Source: Leptospiraceae bacterium
Lineage (GTDB): Bacteria > Spirochaetota > Leptospiria > Leptospirales > Leptonemataceae
DNA: 64,000 nucleotides
NCBI GenBank assembly: GCA_025059995.1
Contig: JANXCF010000004.1
Span: 1-64,000 of the forward strand
Direction of reading: 5' to 3'
In this document: in pieces, positions 3,319 through 48,520 of the stretch
Position numbering within the stretch: the first letter of the stretch is position 1
Layout: each line of letters opens with the position of its first letter
Program-made: the position numbers and the translations under genes
The notes under the pieces: generated by a model
Told to the model about the DNA's origin: nothing
Databases searched by the model: none
What the model saw: the letters and a program-made list of their open reading frames with translations, nothing else

Positions 3319-3661
<343 letters not shown>

Positions 3662-39934: not shown

Positions 39935-41086
39935 TTACATGATCCTTTCGTAGATGTTATGAATACTTCGTTGTATGTAGAATTCTTTTTGAACTTTTTG
40001 TTCTGCGTTTCTTCCCATTTTTTTTCTCAGTTTTGAGTCTTTGTATAACTCCCAGATTTTATAGGATAGCAATTCAAAATCGTCATAGCTTACAATATAT
40101 CCTGTGACGTTATTTTGAACTAACTCATGAATGGCAGCTCCATTCCCAGCAATCACGGGCAAGGAACTATATCCAGCTTCTAAAAGCGTAATACTAAAAC
40201 CCGAAAAAGGATCCCTACCATCACCACCAGGATGAAAATATACATCTGAGTGGAAATACATCATCCCTAATTCTTTGTCACTTAAAAACCCTAACAAAGT
40301 TATATAATCTTCTAAGTTATGGGAATGAATCAGCTCTTTTAGAAAATAAAACTCTTCTCCACTTCCTGCGATGAACCAATGGATGTTTTCTTTTTGAATT
40401 AACTTGATAAGGTGTTCGAGAACGAAAACCCCCCTATGAATGTGTTTTTTTTTTACTAAAGGACCGACTGTCAATATCTTGAATTGATCTTTTTGTTTTT
40501 TGAGAATGGTTTTGAAGTTTTCGTTGACTGGATGATCTTTTGTATGCTCCCATCTCGCAAATAACCCCAAAGGAATTAATATTAATTTTTCTCGAGGAAA
40601 ACCATTAATCAAAGCCAATTCATAAAAATAATGGGTATAGGTAAAAATATATTTTGACTCTCGAAGAAAGCGATTCAATCCAAAATGAAAAAAAGGGCTT
40701 TTTTCTAAATCCACAGGATGTAAAATGATGGAATACGGAATACCTAGTCCTTGAATAAAGGGGTACAAGTATTTTATATTCGAATATAAATTACCGATTA
40801 AAATATGTTTTATTGGGATTTCTTTTTTTAACTTTTCTAATTGGATGACTATTTCTTTGATATGATTCTTTTTTTTAAAAGAACGATTCGGAATTATGTG
40901 ATGATAAATCGTTTTAGACAAATAGTCTTCGTAATCGGCATTTTTTTTTGGTTCAGGATAGCTATCTAAAAAAAAAGTAATGATATACTCATCTGGCCAG
41001 AATTTGACCAAACCCAAATGAAAGCTTTCGATTCCTCCAGGATAAGGACCGAAAAAATCTGTAATGAACACCACATAAGGCTTCAT
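39935..41086 (-). CDS. GT4-type glycosyltransferase
   Basis: 383-residue GT-B fold enzyme that transfers a sugar from a nucleotide-sugar. N-terminal FFGPYPGGIESFHLGLVKF is the acceptor-side Gly-rich start; FKILTVGPLVKKKHIHRGVF (near 205) and WFIAGSGEEFYFLKELI begin the donor domain; HPGGDGRDPFSGFSITLLEA near 315 corresponds to the EX7E region, with the first acidic residue apparently replaced, and GNGAAIHELVQNNVTGYIV follows. It likely works on surface polysaccharide or a glycolipid, but the substrates are not shown. It is first gene of the minus operon ending at 33267. Confidence 0.87.
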   Translation of the reverse strand: MKPYVVFITDFFGPYPGGIESFHLGLVKFWPDEYIITFFLDSYPEPKKNADYEDYLSKTIYHHIIPNRSFKKKNHIKEIVIQLEKLKKEIPIKHILIGNLYSNIKYLYPFIQGLGIPYSIILHPVDLEKSPFFHFGLNRFLRESKYIFTYTHYFYELALINGFPREKLILIPLGLFARWEHTKDHPVNENFKTILKKQKDQFKILTVGPLVKKKHIHRGVFVLEHLIKLIQKENIHWFIAGSGEEFYFLKELIHSHNLEDYITLLGFLSDKELGMMYFHSDVYFHPGGDGRDPFSGFSITLLEAGYSSLPVIAGNGAAIHELVQNNVTGYIVSYDDFELLSYKIWELYKDSKLRKKMGRNAEQKVQKEFYIQRSIHNIYERIM

Positions 41087-41133: not shown

Positions 41134-44004
41134 ATGAAAAATCAATTACAATGGTTGATACTCATCAGCATATTCGGCTTGGCTTTAGGAACGTTTCATT
41201 GCCAAAAAAAAGACCCACAAAAGACAGCTCCTCTAGATACTCTCAAGCAAACTTTTTCTAATTTTGAAATTCTGTTCTTGAAAAAAAGCCACGAAGAACT
41301 CAAAAAAAATGATGATTTTCTCTCTAAACTGAAATTTGTTTCTGAATATACAAAAGAAGGAAATCCAACAAATTACTTTCCTGTTTTTCAGAAGGATGGG
41401 TGTTTTTACTCTTCAGATCCCTTTTATTTCCATAATGAATTTGGACTAGCAATTAAGTATTGTTCATCGGTAATAACAGAAAATTATCAGCAAATACAAG
41501 AATATCTTCATAGAATCGATGAAGACATTCAAATTCATCTTCCTACGGAAATAATTAGTTTTAATAAAAAGACGTTGGATTCGTTAACAAAAGAATCATA
41601 TCTGATTGTATATCACTCTTTTCTTGATCCAAAAATACAAAAGAAATTTGAAGAAATTCCAACAGAACTCTTTTTCTTCTCGGATAAGTCTTTTGATAAA
41701 AATCAAGAAACTCAAGTTTTTATCCCAAAACGCTTCTTTGAGGTGGAATATGGATTGCTTATACAAGAAGAGCGAGTTCATTTTCTATACAAGCTCAAAA
41801 GAAATTTTCTCAACATAACCATAAAAGATAAATCCTTTGCAAAAGAATTAATTAGCTTCTTTACAAATTTTCCCTTTAAAAAGCTCATGGAAATCTCAAC
41901 GTCAAATTCTTTAAAAATCGATAAGTTATTATTTCAAAACAAAAAACCCAAGATGATTACTTTGTCTTCTCAAGAAGATTTTGTGATTTTAGAAAATCCA
42001 AAAAATCAAAAAGTGAGCTATTTTTTCCCCTATACAAATATTGTCTTTGATTTAGATGAGTTTGATTATACATATAAAAATAACCAATTAGAAATTTTTA
42101 CTAATCCTTCACTTTTCATGAAGGTTCATCAGCCTCAAGGAAACATTCATCATCATTGGCTTGTAAATGATGGAACTGGGTACGTGCCCCTAAGCATATG
42201 CCTTTGGAATACTCCTTGTAGTGTGAATGATTTAAATCACAGCGAATTCGAAGACTCTAATTCCATTCAAGACTGTGATCTCAGTTCTTTTATTCTTACA
42301 GAACTCAACCCTTTTGGTTTGTATAGTAATGATAGAGTTAATGCCTATGGCAAATTCATTGAAATTTATAATAACAAAAAATGCTCAAATAAAATTTATT
42401 TATCGATTGATAACGTTCTTGTACCTTTTCCTGATAATTTGTTAGAGACTTATTATGTTTTTGCTCCTTCTGATAAATATATTCTTTATGAAAACTTAAT
42501 TCAAGACGTTTCAGTTGTTTCTTTGAAGCCAAGTTCTCAAATCGATGTGGTGCAGTTTTTTCCTTACAAACGAAGGACTTTATTTTCTGGAATACATCCT
42601 GAAAACTCAAGCGAAGAAAATTACTTTATCTATGGTGATAAACAAAATGGTATTTTTAAAGATGTTCATTCCCTTGTTTTAGAAAACCAAGATTGGGGGT
42701 TTCATTCCCATGATTGTATGGGGCTTAGTGATTGCCATCAATACGGCATGAGTCCAGGATATGAAAATCCAAAAGTTCTTGAGCATCAAGAATGTAGGAT
42801 CTCAGAAATTTTCATCGGAGGTCCTTACAATCATCAAAATAAACGTCTAAGCTCAGATGAATTCATCGAGATAGAATGCAAAAACTCAAATACAGTAGAA
42901 CTTCATTATTTTAAAATCAAAAATAACGATAAAACTTATAAATACTTCTTTCCAACCCCCAAAAGAAATCGATTTTCCCTGTTTGCAGAAAAGCCAGTTT
43001 GTTTGATTAACGAAAACAACGTAGTTTTCTCAAATTTAAAGATACCTAATGACTATAGATTAGAACTCACAACACCAACACAAAACATAAAGCTTGACTA
43101 TAGAATCTACTCAAATGCTGTAAATTCTCAGAAACCAAAGTCGATAAACATTGCGGGCACGACCCTCACCCTAACAAGTGATGATCAAGAGTTAACCCAC
43201 TGCATAGGCAATGCAACTCCAAATCAACAGAATCAATTTATCCCCGTTCTGGAAATTGATGGATACCAACAGAAGCACTTTCGTTTGATTTCTTCCCAAA
43301 ATCAAAATCGAATAGAAGTTTACGAACAAAATGGACAACGATTATCCCATTGGACTCAAGATTCTTTTACTGATTTTAATTGGAATCCACAAATCCCTTT
43401 AAAACCTCATGAACGTCAATTGTTGCGAATTGTTATCGATTCAAAATTTCTCATTTATGATGAACTCTTTTTAGAAAAGCCTTTTTGTTTTATCGATTTA
43501 CTTCATATTCATACTCCTGAATACTTACGGATTTGTTTTTTAGAAAATGATGATCAAAACCGAGCTCTCTTTCTTAAAGATAATCACACAGAAATACAAA
43601 TACAGCCTATTGCCACAAAACCCATCATAATTGAAAACGAATATCTAAACCAATTAGAAAAAAATACATTTTCTGCCAAAAAGAATCGATGTATAATCCT
43701 TGTTGAACCCAAACCAACGATACCAAATTTTTCTGTTATAGAACCGCATTCGGGTTTTGTTGATGAATTTCTTACAACATCAAATAGAACAAGAATCGGT
43801 AATGGTTTAAGTGAAAACGAATACATAGAAGTTTATTGGAAAATTAGAAAAAGCTCTAACCAGTTCGAAAAGATTTCTTTGTGTTCCTATGGAGTTCCTG
43901 AGTGGAAAATTTCTCCTTTTAGTATTCCAGATGGAAAAGTAGTTTTAAATCAAATTCGAAAAAATGGCAAAGCGTTCGGAAACTTTCACTTTTATATCCC
44001 ATAG
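41134..44004 (+). CDS. Large surface lipoprotein with lamin-tail-like domains
   Basis: 956 residues. The leader LQWLILISIFGLALGTFHC gives a lipidated Cys near 24. Three segments resemble lamin-tail (LTD) domains: FILTELNPFGLYSND...GKFIEIYNN near 385-425; CRISEIFIGGPYNHQN...DEFIEIECK near 553-590; FSVIEPHSGF...ENEYIEVYW near 866-905. Each has the FIEI/YIEV strand after a 15-30 residue loop. Long linkers between are unrecognised. Such LTD lipoproteins occur in spirochaetes, often near exported hydrolases. A promoter is probably in 41087-41133. It is first in a run of same-strand genes reaching 49242. Confidence 0.65.
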   Translation: MKNQLQWLILISIFGLALGTFHCQKKDPQKTAPLDTLKQTFSNFEILFLKKSHEELKKNDDFLSKLKFVSEYTKEGNPTNYFPVFQKDGCFYSSDPFYFHNEFGLAIKYCSSVITENYQQIQEYLHRIDEDIQIHLPTEIISFNKKTLDSLTKESYLIVYHSFLDPKIQKKFEEIPTELFFFSDKSFDKNQETQVFIPKRFFEVEYGLLIQEERVHFLYKLKRNFLNITIKDKSFAKELISFFTNFPFKKLMEISTSNSLKIDKLLFQNKKPKMITLSSQEDFVILENPKNQKVSYFFPYTNIVFDLDEFDYTYKNNQLEIFTNPSLFMKVHQPQGNIHHHWLVNDGTGYVPLSICLWNTPCSVNDLNHSEFEDSNSIQDCDLSSFILTELNPFGLYSNDRVNAYGKFIEIYNNKKCSNKIYLSIDNVLVPFPDNLLETYYVFAPSDKYILYENLIQDVSVVSLKPSSQIDVVQFFPYKRRTLFSGIHPENSSEENYFIYGDKQNGIFKDVHSLVLENQDWGFHSHDCMGLSDCHQYGMSPGYENPKVLEHQECRISEIFIGGPYNHQNKRLSSDEFIEIECKNSNTVELHYFKIKNNDKTYKYFFPTPKRNRFSLFAEKPVCLINENNVVFSNLKIPNDYRLELTTPTQNIKLDYRIYSNAVNSQKPKSINIAGTTLTLTSDDQELTHCIGNATPNQQNQFIPVLEIDGYQQKHFRLISSQNQNRIEVYEQNGQRLSHWTQDSFTDFNWNPQIPLKPHERQLLRIVIDSKFLIYDELFLEKPFCFIDLLHIHTPEYLRICFLENDDQNRALFLKDNHTEIQIQPIATKPIIIENEYLNQLEKNTFSAKKNRCIILVEPKPTIPNFSVIEPHSGFVDEFLTTSNRTRIGNGLSENEYIEVYWKIRKSSNQFEKISLCSYGVPEWKISPFSIPDGKVVLNQIRKNGKAFGNFHFYIP

Positions 44005-44013
44005 GGAGGAAAT

Positions 44014-45414
44014 ATGAGAATTCTTTTACTTTTGTTTATTTTTGTTATAAACTTCTATGTGTTATTTGGAAGTGATGGAAAGTTAACTTCAGGTTTTTAT
44101 AGCAATTTCTTTATTACTACAACCAATGAAGGACAGAATCAAAACCGAAAAGTTCAAGAATTTCAATATTTTGGCATTCCTTTGGTAGTGAATTATGTCG
44201 ATGAACATACGATTGTAGATGTTCACCAGATTATACTTTTTCCTGTGTATAGAAAAGAGGACCATGAATTTCTAAATCCTATCAAAAAAGAAAAACAGCA
44301 ATCTCAAATAAAATTTTTTAGCTTTCAGAATACTTTGATGGGCGCATATTATGAAAACTTGTTTTTAACATTTGGATATGCTGATCCTTATCATTCTACT
44401 CTTGATAAAAATAGAGCCATTTTTGGAGATACGTTTTTTCCCTCTTTGGATGTTCGTGTTCAAACCCAGCGCCATATCTTTGTTTTTTCCCCCATTTACT
44501 GGACCGAACTTTCCCAAAGGTATGAAAGAAATTTCGAAGACAATAACATTCATTTCATTCATCAAATCAAAAAAGATATAAATTTTCAATTATCAAATCA
44601 TCAATATAAACTACATTATAGCTTTCTTTTTGATTTTTTTGCTTTGCAATTTGGGTATTATCGATATGAGCAGGAAAACCCCTACTCCAACAAAAAAAAC
44701 TTTATTGGATTTGATTACTATGACTTTCGAACTTTGTTTTTCAGTGAAAATATCAATTTAAGACTTAGAATAGCAAACAGTAAAGGAAGTTTTTCGAATT
44801 CGAATGTTATTTACCCTATATTCGGTTATAAATATCAATTTTCGCTTTTTCTGGAGTTTTATCCTTTTCAGCTCTATTTTGATGGCAGTAAAACCACGAA
44901 ATCCAAGTTTGATCCATGGACCCAAAAATATAAATACTTTGGTTATACTTCTTTTTTTTCTGAATATGTGCCATCACCGCAATTAAGTTCTACGTATGAT
45001 TTGATTCCACATTATCAAATTTGCTTTGAATCGAAAAACCCATGTGAAGGGATTTTGTATTATCATAGTGACTTTTCTTTTAATGAACCAGCGGATACTT
45101 TTTATATGAAATTAAAATTTCTTTATTATTCGTTTCAGCTTGCTGTGGGTGTTGGATACATAGAGCTCTTTAAAATCAAAAAAAACCCTATTGAAATTGG
45201 GTTTGATACAGCTCTATGGGATACATTGATTCTCAAGAAACCTCAACAAAGATGGATTTATATTGAACCATTTCTCCAGGTAATTTTGAAATACAAACGA
45301 TTTCTTATGCATATAAACTATTCTCAATTTTACCAAAAACATCAGGATCCACAAAAAAAACCCTATAATGAAATATCAAAAAACTTCTTATTTTCATTTC
45401 TCTTTTTGATGTGA
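44014..45414 (+). CDS. Predicted outer-membrane beta-barrel protein
   Basis: 466 residues. Signal peptide MRILLLLFIFVINFYVLFGS, then many amphipathic strands rich in Tyr and Phe (YKLHYSFLFDFFALQFGYYR; GYKYQFSLFLEFYPFQLYF; YMKLKFLYYSFQLAVGVGYI), and a C-terminal strand ISKNFLFSFLFLM ending in hydrophobic residues. No family recognised by motif. A strong ribosome site GGGAGGAAAT precedes the ATG, which lies 9 bases after the LTD lipoprotein stop. Its place between two lipoproteins suggests a joint surface role. Confidence 0.65.
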   Translation: MRILLLLFIFVINFYVLFGSDGKLTSGFYSNFFITTTNEGQNQNRKVQEFQYFGIPLVVNYVDEHTIVDVHQIILFPVYRKEDHEFLNPIKKEKQQSQIKFFSFQNTLMGAYYENLFLTFGYADPYHSTLDKNRAIFGDTFFPSLDVRVQTQRHIFVFSPIYWTELSQRYERNFEDNNIHFIHQIKKDINFQLSNHQYKLHYSFLFDFFALQFGYYRYEQENPYSNKKNFIGFDYYDFRTLFFSENINLRLRIANSKGSFSNSNVIYPIFGYKYQFSLFLEFYPFQLYFDGSKTTKSKFDPWTQKYKYFGYTSFFSEYVPSPQLSSTYDLIPHYQICFESKNPCEGILYYHSDFSFNEPADTFYMKLKFLYYSFQLAVGVGYIELFKIKKNPIEIGFDTALWDTLILKKPQQRWIYIEPFLQVILKYKRFLMHINYSQFYQKHQDPQKKPYNEISKNFLFSFLFLM

Positions 45415-45423
45415 GGGTAGTCT

Positions 45424-47127
45424 ATGAGACAGGTTATCCTATTGATTTTAGGCTTTCTTTTATTTTGTAATCAAAAATCGAAACAAGATTTATTTTTAAT
45501 TTCTCATTTGACTTCAACACCAAGGATTCATTATTATTTTACAGATCCATATGATCTACCCAATAATATTAAAGTTCGAGATAAAATCCTTGAGATCATT
45601 GAGGGAACTCAAGTGGAATTATATCTTTTTGTTTATGAAATCAACGAAAAAGAAATTTTGCAGGCAATACTCAAAAAGTACCAACAAGGAGTAAAAATCT
45701 ATATTTTTGGTTCAAATGACCAAAAATACAGTGAATTCAATGAATGGAAAATTCCTTACAAAACCAATGCAGGCTCAGGCTTACAACATATAAAAATGAT
45801 TCTTTCAGATAAAAAAGTTCTATTTTCTGGCACAGGGAATTTTACCCAGAGTGATATTTTTTATAATTCGAATCTCTTTATTGAGATACCCATCAATGAA
45901 ATGACTGGGAATTTGTTGATCAAAAAATTTTATGAATTCGATTACCTTTCACCTATTACAATACAAGGTCCTTCTTATAAAGTAAAAATTCTAAAATCTC
46001 CAGAAAATGGCGACTCCATTCAAAGCATCATGAATAACACGATATTACGTTCAAAAAGAAAAATAGATTTTTTTGTTTTTAGTTTCTTTGATCCTACAAT
46101 CATGAATTCATTATATTACAAAAGCCAACAAGGTGTATTGGTATCAGGCATTATTGATCAGCAAAGTCTAACTAACAATGAAAATATCAGACTTCTCATA
46201 TCTCACCAACAAGGAAATTCGTTTTTTGTCTATCAAGATAATTTTCACATGCAATATATTGACGAAGAAGGTATCAGGAGAGGAGCGAAAATCCATCATA
46301 AAACTTTGCTTGTAGATAATTTGATTTTGACAGGTTCTTATAATCTAAGCTTGAATGCTAAAGATAATAATCATGAAGTTTTTTTTGTGATTGAAGATCC
46401 GAAGGGTTTTTTAGAAGTACAAAAAAAATACCAAACGTTATACGAAAAATCTTTGCCAATTTTTCTAAATGAAAAGAAACCCTCAATTAATGACATAGAA
46501 ATTACGGATAACATATGTCAGAAATCATCTGGAAGTAGTGTGTATTTTCAAAACAAAAATGCCTTTTTGTTTATGATACACATAAAAGACTCAGAATGCC
46601 CAACAACTTATAGTTCCTACTCCAGTGGCATTGTGGGTAATCCTTCTGATGGATTTCCATTCTTAGAAGGAGTTTCTATCAAGAATTTTCAAGAGATAAA
46701 ACAAACTTATAAAGAAAATCTATGGGGTTGTTCTTTTGAATGTGATTTTTGTGAGATTTTTGATTGTAGTTTATTCAAAATACAAAGCATAAACCTTAAT
46801 GGAAAATATTTTACTTCAAAAGAACTCATTGAACCTATTGAGTCCTCTTTTCTTTGGGATGGTCAAAGATGGTTTGCTTTGAAAGTCAAAAATATTATTA
46901 AATTCAATCATTATTATTATTTGTTTGATATACTTGAGGGAAAAAAACAATTTTCTGGTAAAATTTCAGACGGTATTATCTTTCTAAAAAGCAAGAATAA
47001 CTTATTCATAGGTTGCTTCTATAAAAATAACTTAAGAAAAAACCTAAGAACTTTTTTAAATTTACTTGAATGGTATCAAGAAAAGTTTTTAGCATTAGAA
47101 AAAGAATGTGCCTTACAAAAACATTAA
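45424..47127 (+). CDS. Phospholipase D-like lipoprotein with two HKD motifs
   Basis: 567 residues. The leader MRQVILLILGFLLFC ends in a lipobox-like Cys15. Two PLD catalytic motifs: HIKMILSD (His122, Lys124, Asp129) followed by GTGNFT, and HHKTLLVD (His292, Lys294, Asp299) followed by GSYNLS. Both H-x-K-x4-D sets are intact, so phosphodiesterase or phosphatidyltransferase activity is likely, outside the cytoplasm. The C-terminal ~200 residues are an unrecognised Cys-rich domain (CSFECDFCEIFDC). It starts 9 bases after the barrel gene, with GAGGGTAG upstream. Confidence 0.85.
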   Translation: MRQVILLILGFLLFCNQKSKQDLFLISHLTSTPRIHYYFTDPYDLPNNIKVRDKILEIIEGTQVELYLFVYEINEKEILQAILKKYQQGVKIYIFGSNDQKYSEFNEWKIPYKTNAGSGLQHIKMILSDKKVLFSGTGNFTQSDIFYNSNLFIEIPINEMTGNLLIKKFYEFDYLSPITIQGPSYKVKILKSPENGDSIQSIMNNTILRSKRKIDFFVFSFFDPTIMNSLYYKSQQGVLVSGIIDQQSLTNNENIRLLISHQQGNSFFVYQDNFHMQYIDEEGIRRGAKIHHKTLLVDNLILTGSYNLSLNAKDNNHEVFFVIEDPKGFLEVQKKYQTLYEKSLPIFLNEKKPSINDIEITDNICQKSSGSSVYFQNKNAFLFMIHIKDSECPTTYSSYSSGIVGNPSDGFPFLEGVSIKNFQEIKQTYKENLWGCSFECDFCEIFDCSLFKIQSINLNGKYFTSKELIEPIESSFLWDGQRWFALKVKNIIKFNHYYYLFDILEGKKQFSGKISDGIIFLKSKNNLFIGCFYKNNLRKNLRTFLNLLEWYQEKFLALEKECALQKH

Positions 47128-47843
47128 TTCCTTTTGTTGTGTTTTTTCTTTCTTTTGCTCTAAATGCTGATACCTTTGTGAATCTTTATTTTTTGAACTC
47201 GAACTACTTCCAAAAAGAAAGTAATATTGATTTTTTTAATAAGTTTTATAAAAACAAAAAAGAACTTCATGCACGAGGTAAAGAATTCTCGTTATTCTTT
47301 TTAGATTTTACCATCAACAATAATCCAAGCTTGTATAAAGAGAAAGAATATTATCACATCTTAAGTAATGTGTTGTTTGATTTTGGAAATTTTATTGAAC
47401 AAGAACAAATCATAAAAGAAAACGAAAGTGAACTTAAAAAATACAAAGATAAGCTCATTTGTTTTAATTGCTCGGAGCGATTTAGCTATCTCTACTCAAA
47501 ATTTAAATTTTTGAATTTTCAGAATATCAAAATAGGGATTTTACATTTTCGGGACTGCAGACAAAACGAAAAAGAATTAGAAAAGTTCTTGAATATGCAT
47601 AAAGATACTAATTTATGGATTATTTCCTCAAAAGAAGAATGTAGTGAATTAAATATTTTTATGGAATGGATTGATGAAGCAGTGGTTATCTTTTTTATGT
47701 CAGAAAAAAAGGAATCTTTTTATAAACAAAAAAAAATATTTTATTGCTATAGCCTCGATAAAATTTGTTTTTTGACTCTAAAGCTACGAGAAGGATTATT
47801 ACTAAATATAGAGAGCAATTTTTTGGATTTTAGAGGTCAATGA
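47106..47843 (+). CDS. Exported protein of unknown function
   Basis: 245 residues from ATG 47106, giving the signal peptide MCLTKTLIPFVVFFLSFALN followed by ADTF; the frame also opens at 47070. It overlaps the PLD gene by 22 bases. The start FVNLYFLNSNYFQKE and CFNCSERFSYLYSKFKFLNF, then QNIKIGILHF, faintly recall a 5'-nucleotidase/metallophosphoesterase N-terminus without metal residues; this is a weak impression. Five or more cysteines are spread through the mature part. It ends in an ATGA overlap with coaE. Confidence 0.55.
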   Translation: MCLTKTLIPFVVFFLSFALNADTFVNLYFLNSNYFQKESNIDFFNKFYKNKKELHARGKEFSLFFLDFTINNNPSLYKEKEYYHILSNVLFDFGNFIEQEQIIKENESELKKYKDKLICFNCSERFSYLYSKFKFLNFQNIKIGILHFRDCRQNEKELEKFLNMHKDTNLWIISSKEECSELNIFMEWIDEAVVIFFMSEKKESFYKQKKIFYCYSLDKICFLTLKLREGLLLNIESNFLDFRGQ

Positions 47844-48520
47844 TAAAAGAAGAAATATTTAATCAATATGATAAAATTCCAGAGAAAATTTATTGGAAAA
47901 AAAAATACTTTTTCATAGGTTTAACAGGAACGATTGCTTCTGGGAAAACTACAGTAGCAGAGTTATTTCGAAAAAAAGGTTTTAAAGTATGGAATGCAGA
48001 TTTAATAGCAAAGAAAATGTATAAAAAAACAAAGATAAAAAAAAAGATTATTGACAAATTCGGTAAGGAATCTTACTATGACAATGGGGAGGTAAATACA
48101 GCCTTTCTTGCTAAATCCATATTTAGCGATAGGAAATATGTAGATTGGATTAATTCTATTATACATCCAGAAGTTAGTAGATACACAAACATTTTTTTAA
48201 AATGTTTAAAAGAAGGAGAAGTTTTGGTTTATGATGTTCCTTTGCTATTTGAAAGTGATCTACAAAAAAGTTATGATTTTGATTTAATTCTGGTAATCGA
48301 TGCACCTACATCTCAAAGAATGGATAGAGCTCAACAAAGAGGCTGGAGTAAAGATGAAATTCTTAATAGAGAGAGATTCCAAATCTCACCAGAAGTCAAA
48401 AGGAAACTTGGAGATTGCGTAATCTGGAATGATTCTACATTGGAAAAATTAAATAAAAAAGTTGATTTTTTATCAAAAAAGATTATAACTTCAAAACTTA
48501 AAATGGAGGCTAATTCATGA
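47840..48520 (+). CDS. coaE: Dephospho-CoA kinase
   Basis: Last step of coenzyme A synthesis: phosphorylates the 3'-hydroxyl of dephospho-CoA. P-loop GLTGTIASGKTTVAE near residue 29, then KVWNADLIAKKMY, VYDVPLLFESDLQKSYDFD and LVIDAPTSQRMDRAQQRGWS, all typical of CoaE. The protein is 226 residues with a ~25-residue N-terminal extension before the P-loop strand. The ATG overlaps the previous stop (ATGA), and its own stop overlaps the SPOR gene start in the same manner. Confidence 0.94.
   Translation: MIKEEIFNQYDKIPEKIYWKKKYFFIGLTGTIASGKTTVAELFRKKGFKVWNADLIAKKMYKKTKIKKKIIDKFGKESYYDNGEVNTAFLAKSIFSDRKYVDWINSIIHPEVSRYTNIFLKCLKEGEVLVYDVPLLFESDLQKSYDFDLILVIDAPTSQRMDRAQQRGWSKDEILNRERFQISPEVKRKLGDCVIWNDSTLEKLNKKVDFLSKKIITSKLKMEANS

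Follow-up and report, generated by a model that had tools for sequence, protein, structure and literature searches.

A conserved gene trio of the Leptospirales links a phospholipase D-like lipoprotein to a lamin-tail-domain lipoprotein and a predicted outer-membrane porin

The window analysed here, a stretch of 64,000 nucleotides from the 2.38 Mb genome of a Leptospiraceae bacterium, carries three consecutive genes for exported proteins whose order and strand are conserved over two families of the Leptospirales. They encode a lipoprotein with lamin-tail-domain (LTD) segments, a predicted outer-membrane barrel of porin type and a phospholipase D-like (PLD) lipoprotein with two intact HKD motifs. 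As the best explanation of this arrangement we tentatively propose an outer-membrane nucleic-acid processing unit, in which a surface nuclease would scavenge nucleic acid together with binding partners that are not catalytic and a pore devoted to the task; we see this as a real possibility that nevertheless falls somewhat short of an even chance. The components are of known kinds, and it is their assembly that is new.

The four genes are encoded on the plus strand. Gene 1 (LTDp, 41134..44004) specifies a lipoprotein of 956 aa with a signal peptide and the lipid-carrying Cys23, gene 2 (44014..45414) the barrel of 466 aa, gene 3 (45424..47127) the PLD-like lipoprotein of 567 aa with HKD1 and HKD2, and gene 4 (47070..47843) an exported protein of 257 aa. 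According to the list of open reading frames, 9 bases separate genes 1 and 2 and another 9 bases genes 2 and 3, while genes 3 and 4 overlap. The lipobox cysteines are invariant in the homologues of gene 1 (C23, 22 sequences) and gene 3 (C15, 27 sequences), and the N-terminal stretches of the products of genes 2 and 4 resemble signal peptides. This agrees with the original prediction, made from the letters of the window, of four consecutive plus-strand genes for exported proteins with short gaps or an overlap. The annotated start of gene 4 at 47070 is doubtful, because the signal peptide follows immediately on an internal ATG at 47106, which is likely the true start. Behind gene 4 the run of genes continues uninterrupted with coaE (dephospho-CoA kinase, 47840..48520, plus strand), which overlaps gene 4 by 4 bases, and a gene for a SPOR-domain protein (48517). 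We regard coaE as context outside the unit, and the same holds for the group-1 glycosyltransferase gene (39935..41086, minus strand), the divergent upstream neighbour of gene 1. A scan for promoters and terminators gave counts not above those in shuffled sequence.

Conservation of the gene order in other spirochaetes had been suggested as a check, and it was found for the first three genes. A first sequence search detected the PLD of gene 3 in 49 of 61 relatives, and neither the barrel nor gene 4 was found by this search outside the genus. In distant relatives, however, the PLD is accompanied by an LTD-like lipoprotein and a barrel-sized open reading frame, with the order of the three unchanged. 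Profile searches with alignments of genes 1, 2 and 3 (A1, A2 and A3) were applied to 30 genomes of the order, the neighbours of the window's genome being treated as Leptospirales, and matched gene 1 in 27, gene 2 in 27 and gene 3 in 28 of them. Genes 1-3 are consecutive, in the same order and on the same strand in all 22 genomes with intact contigs (G000-G009, G014-G016, G018, G019, G022-G027 and G029), which belong to two families; five further genomes (G010, G011, G017, G020 and G028) are consistent with the trio at contig ends, and G021 is fragmentary. The surroundings behave differently from the trio. In the family of the window the glycosyltransferase adjoins the unit at 14 of 17 loci and coaE at 10 of 17, as opposed to none of the eight loci of the second family in either case; the trio is kept at all eight of these loci, the flanks of the window's family at none. 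Since the flanks change between the families while the trio stays, the trio outlives its neighbourhood, and such a conserved order over two families is more than chance. In the PLD tree, the unit PLDs form a single clade (support 100/98) that is split by family. This split is what vertical descent predicts, and we consider the unit PLDs as vertically inherited.

The fourth gene does not share this distribution. Its family is confined to the genomes of the window's own family, so that the originally proposed unit of four genes holds as a conserved exported unit for genes 1-3, without gene 4. Pfam gave no match for the gene 4 family, and the family profile (12 sequences) matches the catalytic domain of the UshA 5'-nucleotidase with an E-value of 1.9e-8. 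Only the N-terminal part is present in gene 4, and the DxH and GNHE metal-ligand motifs are replaced in the alignments. Gene 4 thus appears as a divergent UshA relative without metal-ligand residues, likely a second dead hydrolase that adjoins the order-wide unit and is not part of it.

For the putative catalytic component, the sequence profile of gene 3 points to the nucleases rather than to the phospholipases. Pfam recognises PLDc_2 twice (3.5e-23), and both motifs, HKD1 (H122/K124/D129) with GTGN and HKD2 (H291/K293/D298) with GSYN, are invariant in 27 homologues. The closest solved structures by sequence profile are NucT of Helicobacter pylori (2e-20), MitoPLD/Zucchini (1e-19) and Nuc (7e-18), and the sole phospholipase among the matches listed follows at 1.5e-8. 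NucT is also ranked first by NCBIfam, far under its cut-off. It is an envelope-associated nuclease that has been implicated in purine salvage and transformation (PMC5714352). The NucT, Nuc and Zucchini entries are chains of 155-204 aa with one HKD motif, whereas gene 3 combines two HKD motifs in one lipoprotein with an extra Cys-containing domain and with partner genes. This C-terminal domain (residues 346-567, about 220 residues) has the conserved cysteines C392, C531 and C562; the CxxxCxxC-like cluster is confined to the genus. The two intact HKD motifs of the original prediction hold throughout. The domain was also considered as a diverged LTD, and this was rejected, as profile comparisons gave no match to the LTDs of relatives or to gene 1; no recognised fold emerged from these comparisons.

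The partner lipoprotein encoded by gene 1 probably starts with a catalytically dead PLD, a pseudo-PLD, to judge from its structural model. The AlphaFold model has a pLDDT of 64 and a pTM of 0.40, with values mostly above 80 for residues 80-250. Comparison of residues 37-250 with the PDB gave moderate Z-scores for poxvirus F13 (8.0), PLD3 (7.6), PLD4 (7.5) and PPK1 (6.8), followed by Zucchini (6.3, residues 138-251), NucT (6.0) and PS synthase (6.0), and all matches listed over this region belong to the PLD superfamily or have the same fold. Foldseek likewise matched the model to PPK1 (probability 0.96). The motif HxKxxxxD is absent from the first 400 residues in 22 gene 1 homologues, and it is the combination of a PLD-like fold in the model with the missing HKD motif that leads to the pseudo-PLD reading. 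This reading rests on the model, because the profile-profile alignment of gene 1 with the PLD profile (hhalign) covers the final 28 residues only (E 0.058); the gene 1 profile gave no match to PDB chain sequences at E-values up to 1.

Behind this domain, gene 1 has three LTD-like segments at about residues 376-498, 551-645 and 782-925, as had been predicted. The first is recognised in the model, where residues 376-498 match lamin-B1 with Z 6.5-6.7 and an rmsd of about 2.9. The middle one has a Pfam LTD match (PF00932, E 8e-5) with 23.4 bits, below the curated cut-off of 34.3, and the segment 545-660 matches the LTD of relatives in a profile-profile comparison (probability 95.6, E 1.1e-8). For the third, Pfam matches in homologues (E 8e-10 and 6e-9) align to residues 782-859 of the window's protein; the homologues L061 (39.5 bits) and L064 (36.8 bits) exceed the Pfam LTD cut-off. 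The original idea of LTD modules as binders would therefore describe gene 1 incompletely, as the N-terminal domain looks like a dead PLD.

Gene 2 is best described as an outer-membrane barrel of porin type on the basis of its model. The AlphaFold2 model (12 sequences; pLDDT 71, pTM 0.72) found AlgE (6e-7) and the OprD/Occ porins as best matches in Foldseek, and AlgE is also the best PDB match in VIA-align, with Z 17.3 over 328 residues. AlgE, OccK, OpdK and MOMP are tied within about 1 Z, and the top entries among the matches listed are barrels of the outer membrane, which supports the barrel that had been predicted for this gene. On gene order as well as on the LTD and barrel folds, the points at which the original prediction could have failed, the outcome was thus in its favour. 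Gene 2 resembles the AlgE and OprD/Occ porins in fold (Z 16-17) but is only 6-10% identical to them and is without a Pfam family, as the search of gene 2 gave no credible Pfam match.

The same kinds of protein come together a second time, in a paralogous unit. A second PLD match is present in 10 of the 30 genomes, and where it was read, the protein of about 930-1060 aa is a PLD-LTD fusion, encoded after an LTD lipoprotein and a conserved barrel-like protein of 600-670 aa. Relatives at the class level unite PLD and LTD in a single-chain lipoprotein, whose PLD groups with that of the second unit in the tree. In two reduced genomes the order is another one, with the PLD followed by an LTD-like protein and then by the barrel. 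The LTD-like protein has an LTD match (4.7e-5) in one of these two genomes, and the gene 1 profile did not match it. Profile-profile comparison identifies the barrel of the reduced genomes as homologous to the second-unit barrel B (probability 99.3); the match between the first-unit barrel A and barrel B (E 4e-4, probability 36) is only suggestive. We do not claim a pseudo-PLD for gene 1 of the second unit, because its N-terminus looks different. The recurrence of an LTD protein, a barrel and a PLD in varied arrangements is the main argument for a joint function.

A described protein can be connected to this unit. The gene 1 proteins of the second family are homologous over their full length (E-values to 1e-72, model positions 2-699) to the LIC11755 family lipoproteins (NCBIfam NF047473). 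The curated cut-off of this family is 300 bits, the best relative reaches 245 bits and no genome of our set lies above it; in the window's genome, window gene 1 included, the model has no match. LIC11755 is an outer-membrane lipoprotein of Leptospira interrogans that is conserved in the species compared and was reported without a predicted domain and with a model of poor quality (PMC5406399). LTD domains, a PLD-like domain and partner genes are not given for LIC11755 as published. As to its surroundings, LIC11756 is uvrC (PMC3789691), and LIC11755 is two locus numbers away from LIC11753, a putative O-antigen ligase (waaL) of L. interrogans (PMC13111663), a vicinity that could hint at envelope roles.

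In the nucleic-acid processing unit that we propose, gene 3 would be the active enzyme, a two-HKD nuclease of the PLD type that is anchored in the outer membrane, faces outwards and cleaves DNA or RNA outside the cell. Its non-catalytic partner would be the lipoprotein of gene 1, with the dead PLD and the three LTDs binding the polymer and/or docking the enzyme, and the barrel may provide a dedicated pore for the entry of the products or a surface attachment site for the lipoproteins. The window's family would have added the UshA-like protein without metal ligands. Complex formation, the outward-facing location at the surface, the nucleic-acid substrate and the uptake are what we infer here. 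A connection between LTDs and DNA degradation is described for the extracellular nuclease ExeM, which has been implicated in the degradation of extracellular DNA and which, once its LTD is deleted, degrades DNA more slowly in vitro (PMC6085458). LTDs also occur in nucleases of the DNA-degradation loci of Izemoplasma (PMC8289736). ExeM carries an EEP catalytic domain together with the LTD in one chain and has no barrel partner. In contrast, the unit described here has no EEP domain, and PLD and LTD reside on separate lipoproteins, being fused in the paralogue. No paper linking LTD with phospholipase D was found, nor did the open-access literature yield a description of the unit, of a link between LTD and PLD in Leptospira or of such a PLD/pseudo-PLD pair, in agreement with the original prediction, in which this exact combination was not known as a described system.

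The main rival is an editing of lipids or glycolipids, in which the PLD would cleave the head groups of phospholipids at the outer leaflet or transfer them. Lipids can be substrates of HKD enzymes with similar sequences, and MitoPLD is also called cardiolipin hydrolase. A lipid-anchored enzyme of the PLD superfamily beside an outer-membrane barrel would fit such a role, with gene 1 holding the substrate or a partner and the barrel exporting or presenting a lipid-linked product. The divergent glycosyltransferase neighbour in the window's family and the position of LIC11755 near the putative waaL in L. interrogans (PMC13111663) point the same way, as does a Pfam match to PagP in one of 25 barrel homologues (E 0.001). 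However, this match is single and weak, and the gene 2 model is AlgE/OprD-like; the glycosyltransferase is missing from the second family, and the gene 3 profile is nearest to nucleases. We consider lipid editing, including these roles for gene 1 and the barrel, as unlikely, if clearly worth keeping in mind.

A further alternative is that the barrel moves or anchors both lipoproteins, with the PLD as cargo, and thus serves the placement of an enzyme instead of uptake. Every intact unit has one barrel flanked by two lipoproteins, and the barrel fold is as close to the exporter AlgE as to uptake porins. Yet the barrel models as a plain porin without a recognised translocator domain, and most lipoproteins need no barrel of their own to reach the surface, which makes this alternative quite improbable. 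That the genes merely stay together in slowly rearranging genomes without a joint function is the least probable of all and deserves little credence, for although the flanks of the window's family (glycosyltransferase, coaE, SPOR, ppk) are often conserved too, the second family keeps the trio without them, and the combination of these three protein types recurs in the paralogous unit and in the rearranged order.

Taken to its full extent, the proposal of nucleic-acid processing would make the trio an order-wide outer-membrane machine of the Leptospirales, which captures nucleic acid outside the cell, cleaves it and brings it in by means of a PLD nuclease, a pseudo-PLD/LTD lipoprotein and their own porin. 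This version, which would give the uncharacterised LIC11755 a function, we regard as doubtful. In the open-access literature we found no account of an active and a dead enzyme that are carried by two different surface lipoproteins and combined with a porin. If nucleic-acid processing is correct, the Leptospirales would share a dedicated surface system for extracellular nucleic acid or, if the main rival holds, for envelope lipid. LIC11755, a widely conserved Leptospira lipoprotein that has been proposed as a vaccine candidate, would thereby gain domains, partners and a testable role.

In the PLD-like lipoprotein of the main unit (gene 3, 45424-47127, plus strand), residues 346-567 form a Cys-containing C-terminal domain with three near-invariant cysteines (C392, C531 and C562), and a comparison of this segment with the lamin-tail domain (LTD) and other domains found no relation. 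The following gene 4 (47106-47843) belongs, together with its homologues in alignment A11, to an exported UshA-like family, which retains the nucleotidase sequence pattern and has lost the metal-ligand motifs. This gene, positioned between the PLD gene and coaE, is specific to the window's family of genomes. At three loci from one genus of this family of genomes (L052, L055, L087), the PLD gene is followed, in the same orientation, by a gene for a large protein of ~1785 aa, which stands where gene 4 and coaE lie in the window. Elsewhere in the window, a tmRNA gene lies at 3319-3660 (tag ANNEYALAA), and there are no tRNA genes within the 64,000 nt.

Besides the main unit, a paralogous second unit (L079:367-8020; also L069, L070, L078, L080, L103 and L106) comprises an LTD lipoprotein, a barrel-like protein and a PLD-LTD fusion lipoprotein. 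Its barrel-like protein of 600-670 aa has a mean column identity of 56% and no Pfam family. Class-level relatives (L072, L075, L076, L081) carry a single long PLD-containing lipoprotein of up to 1308 aa, with no recognised adjoining barrel gene; in the three scanned for LTD (L072, L075, L076), this domain resides in the same chain as PLD. In the reduced genomes G012 and G013 (L108, L109), the trio is rearranged to the order PLD, LTD-like protein, barrel; the barrel here is a homologue of the second unit's barrel-like protein.
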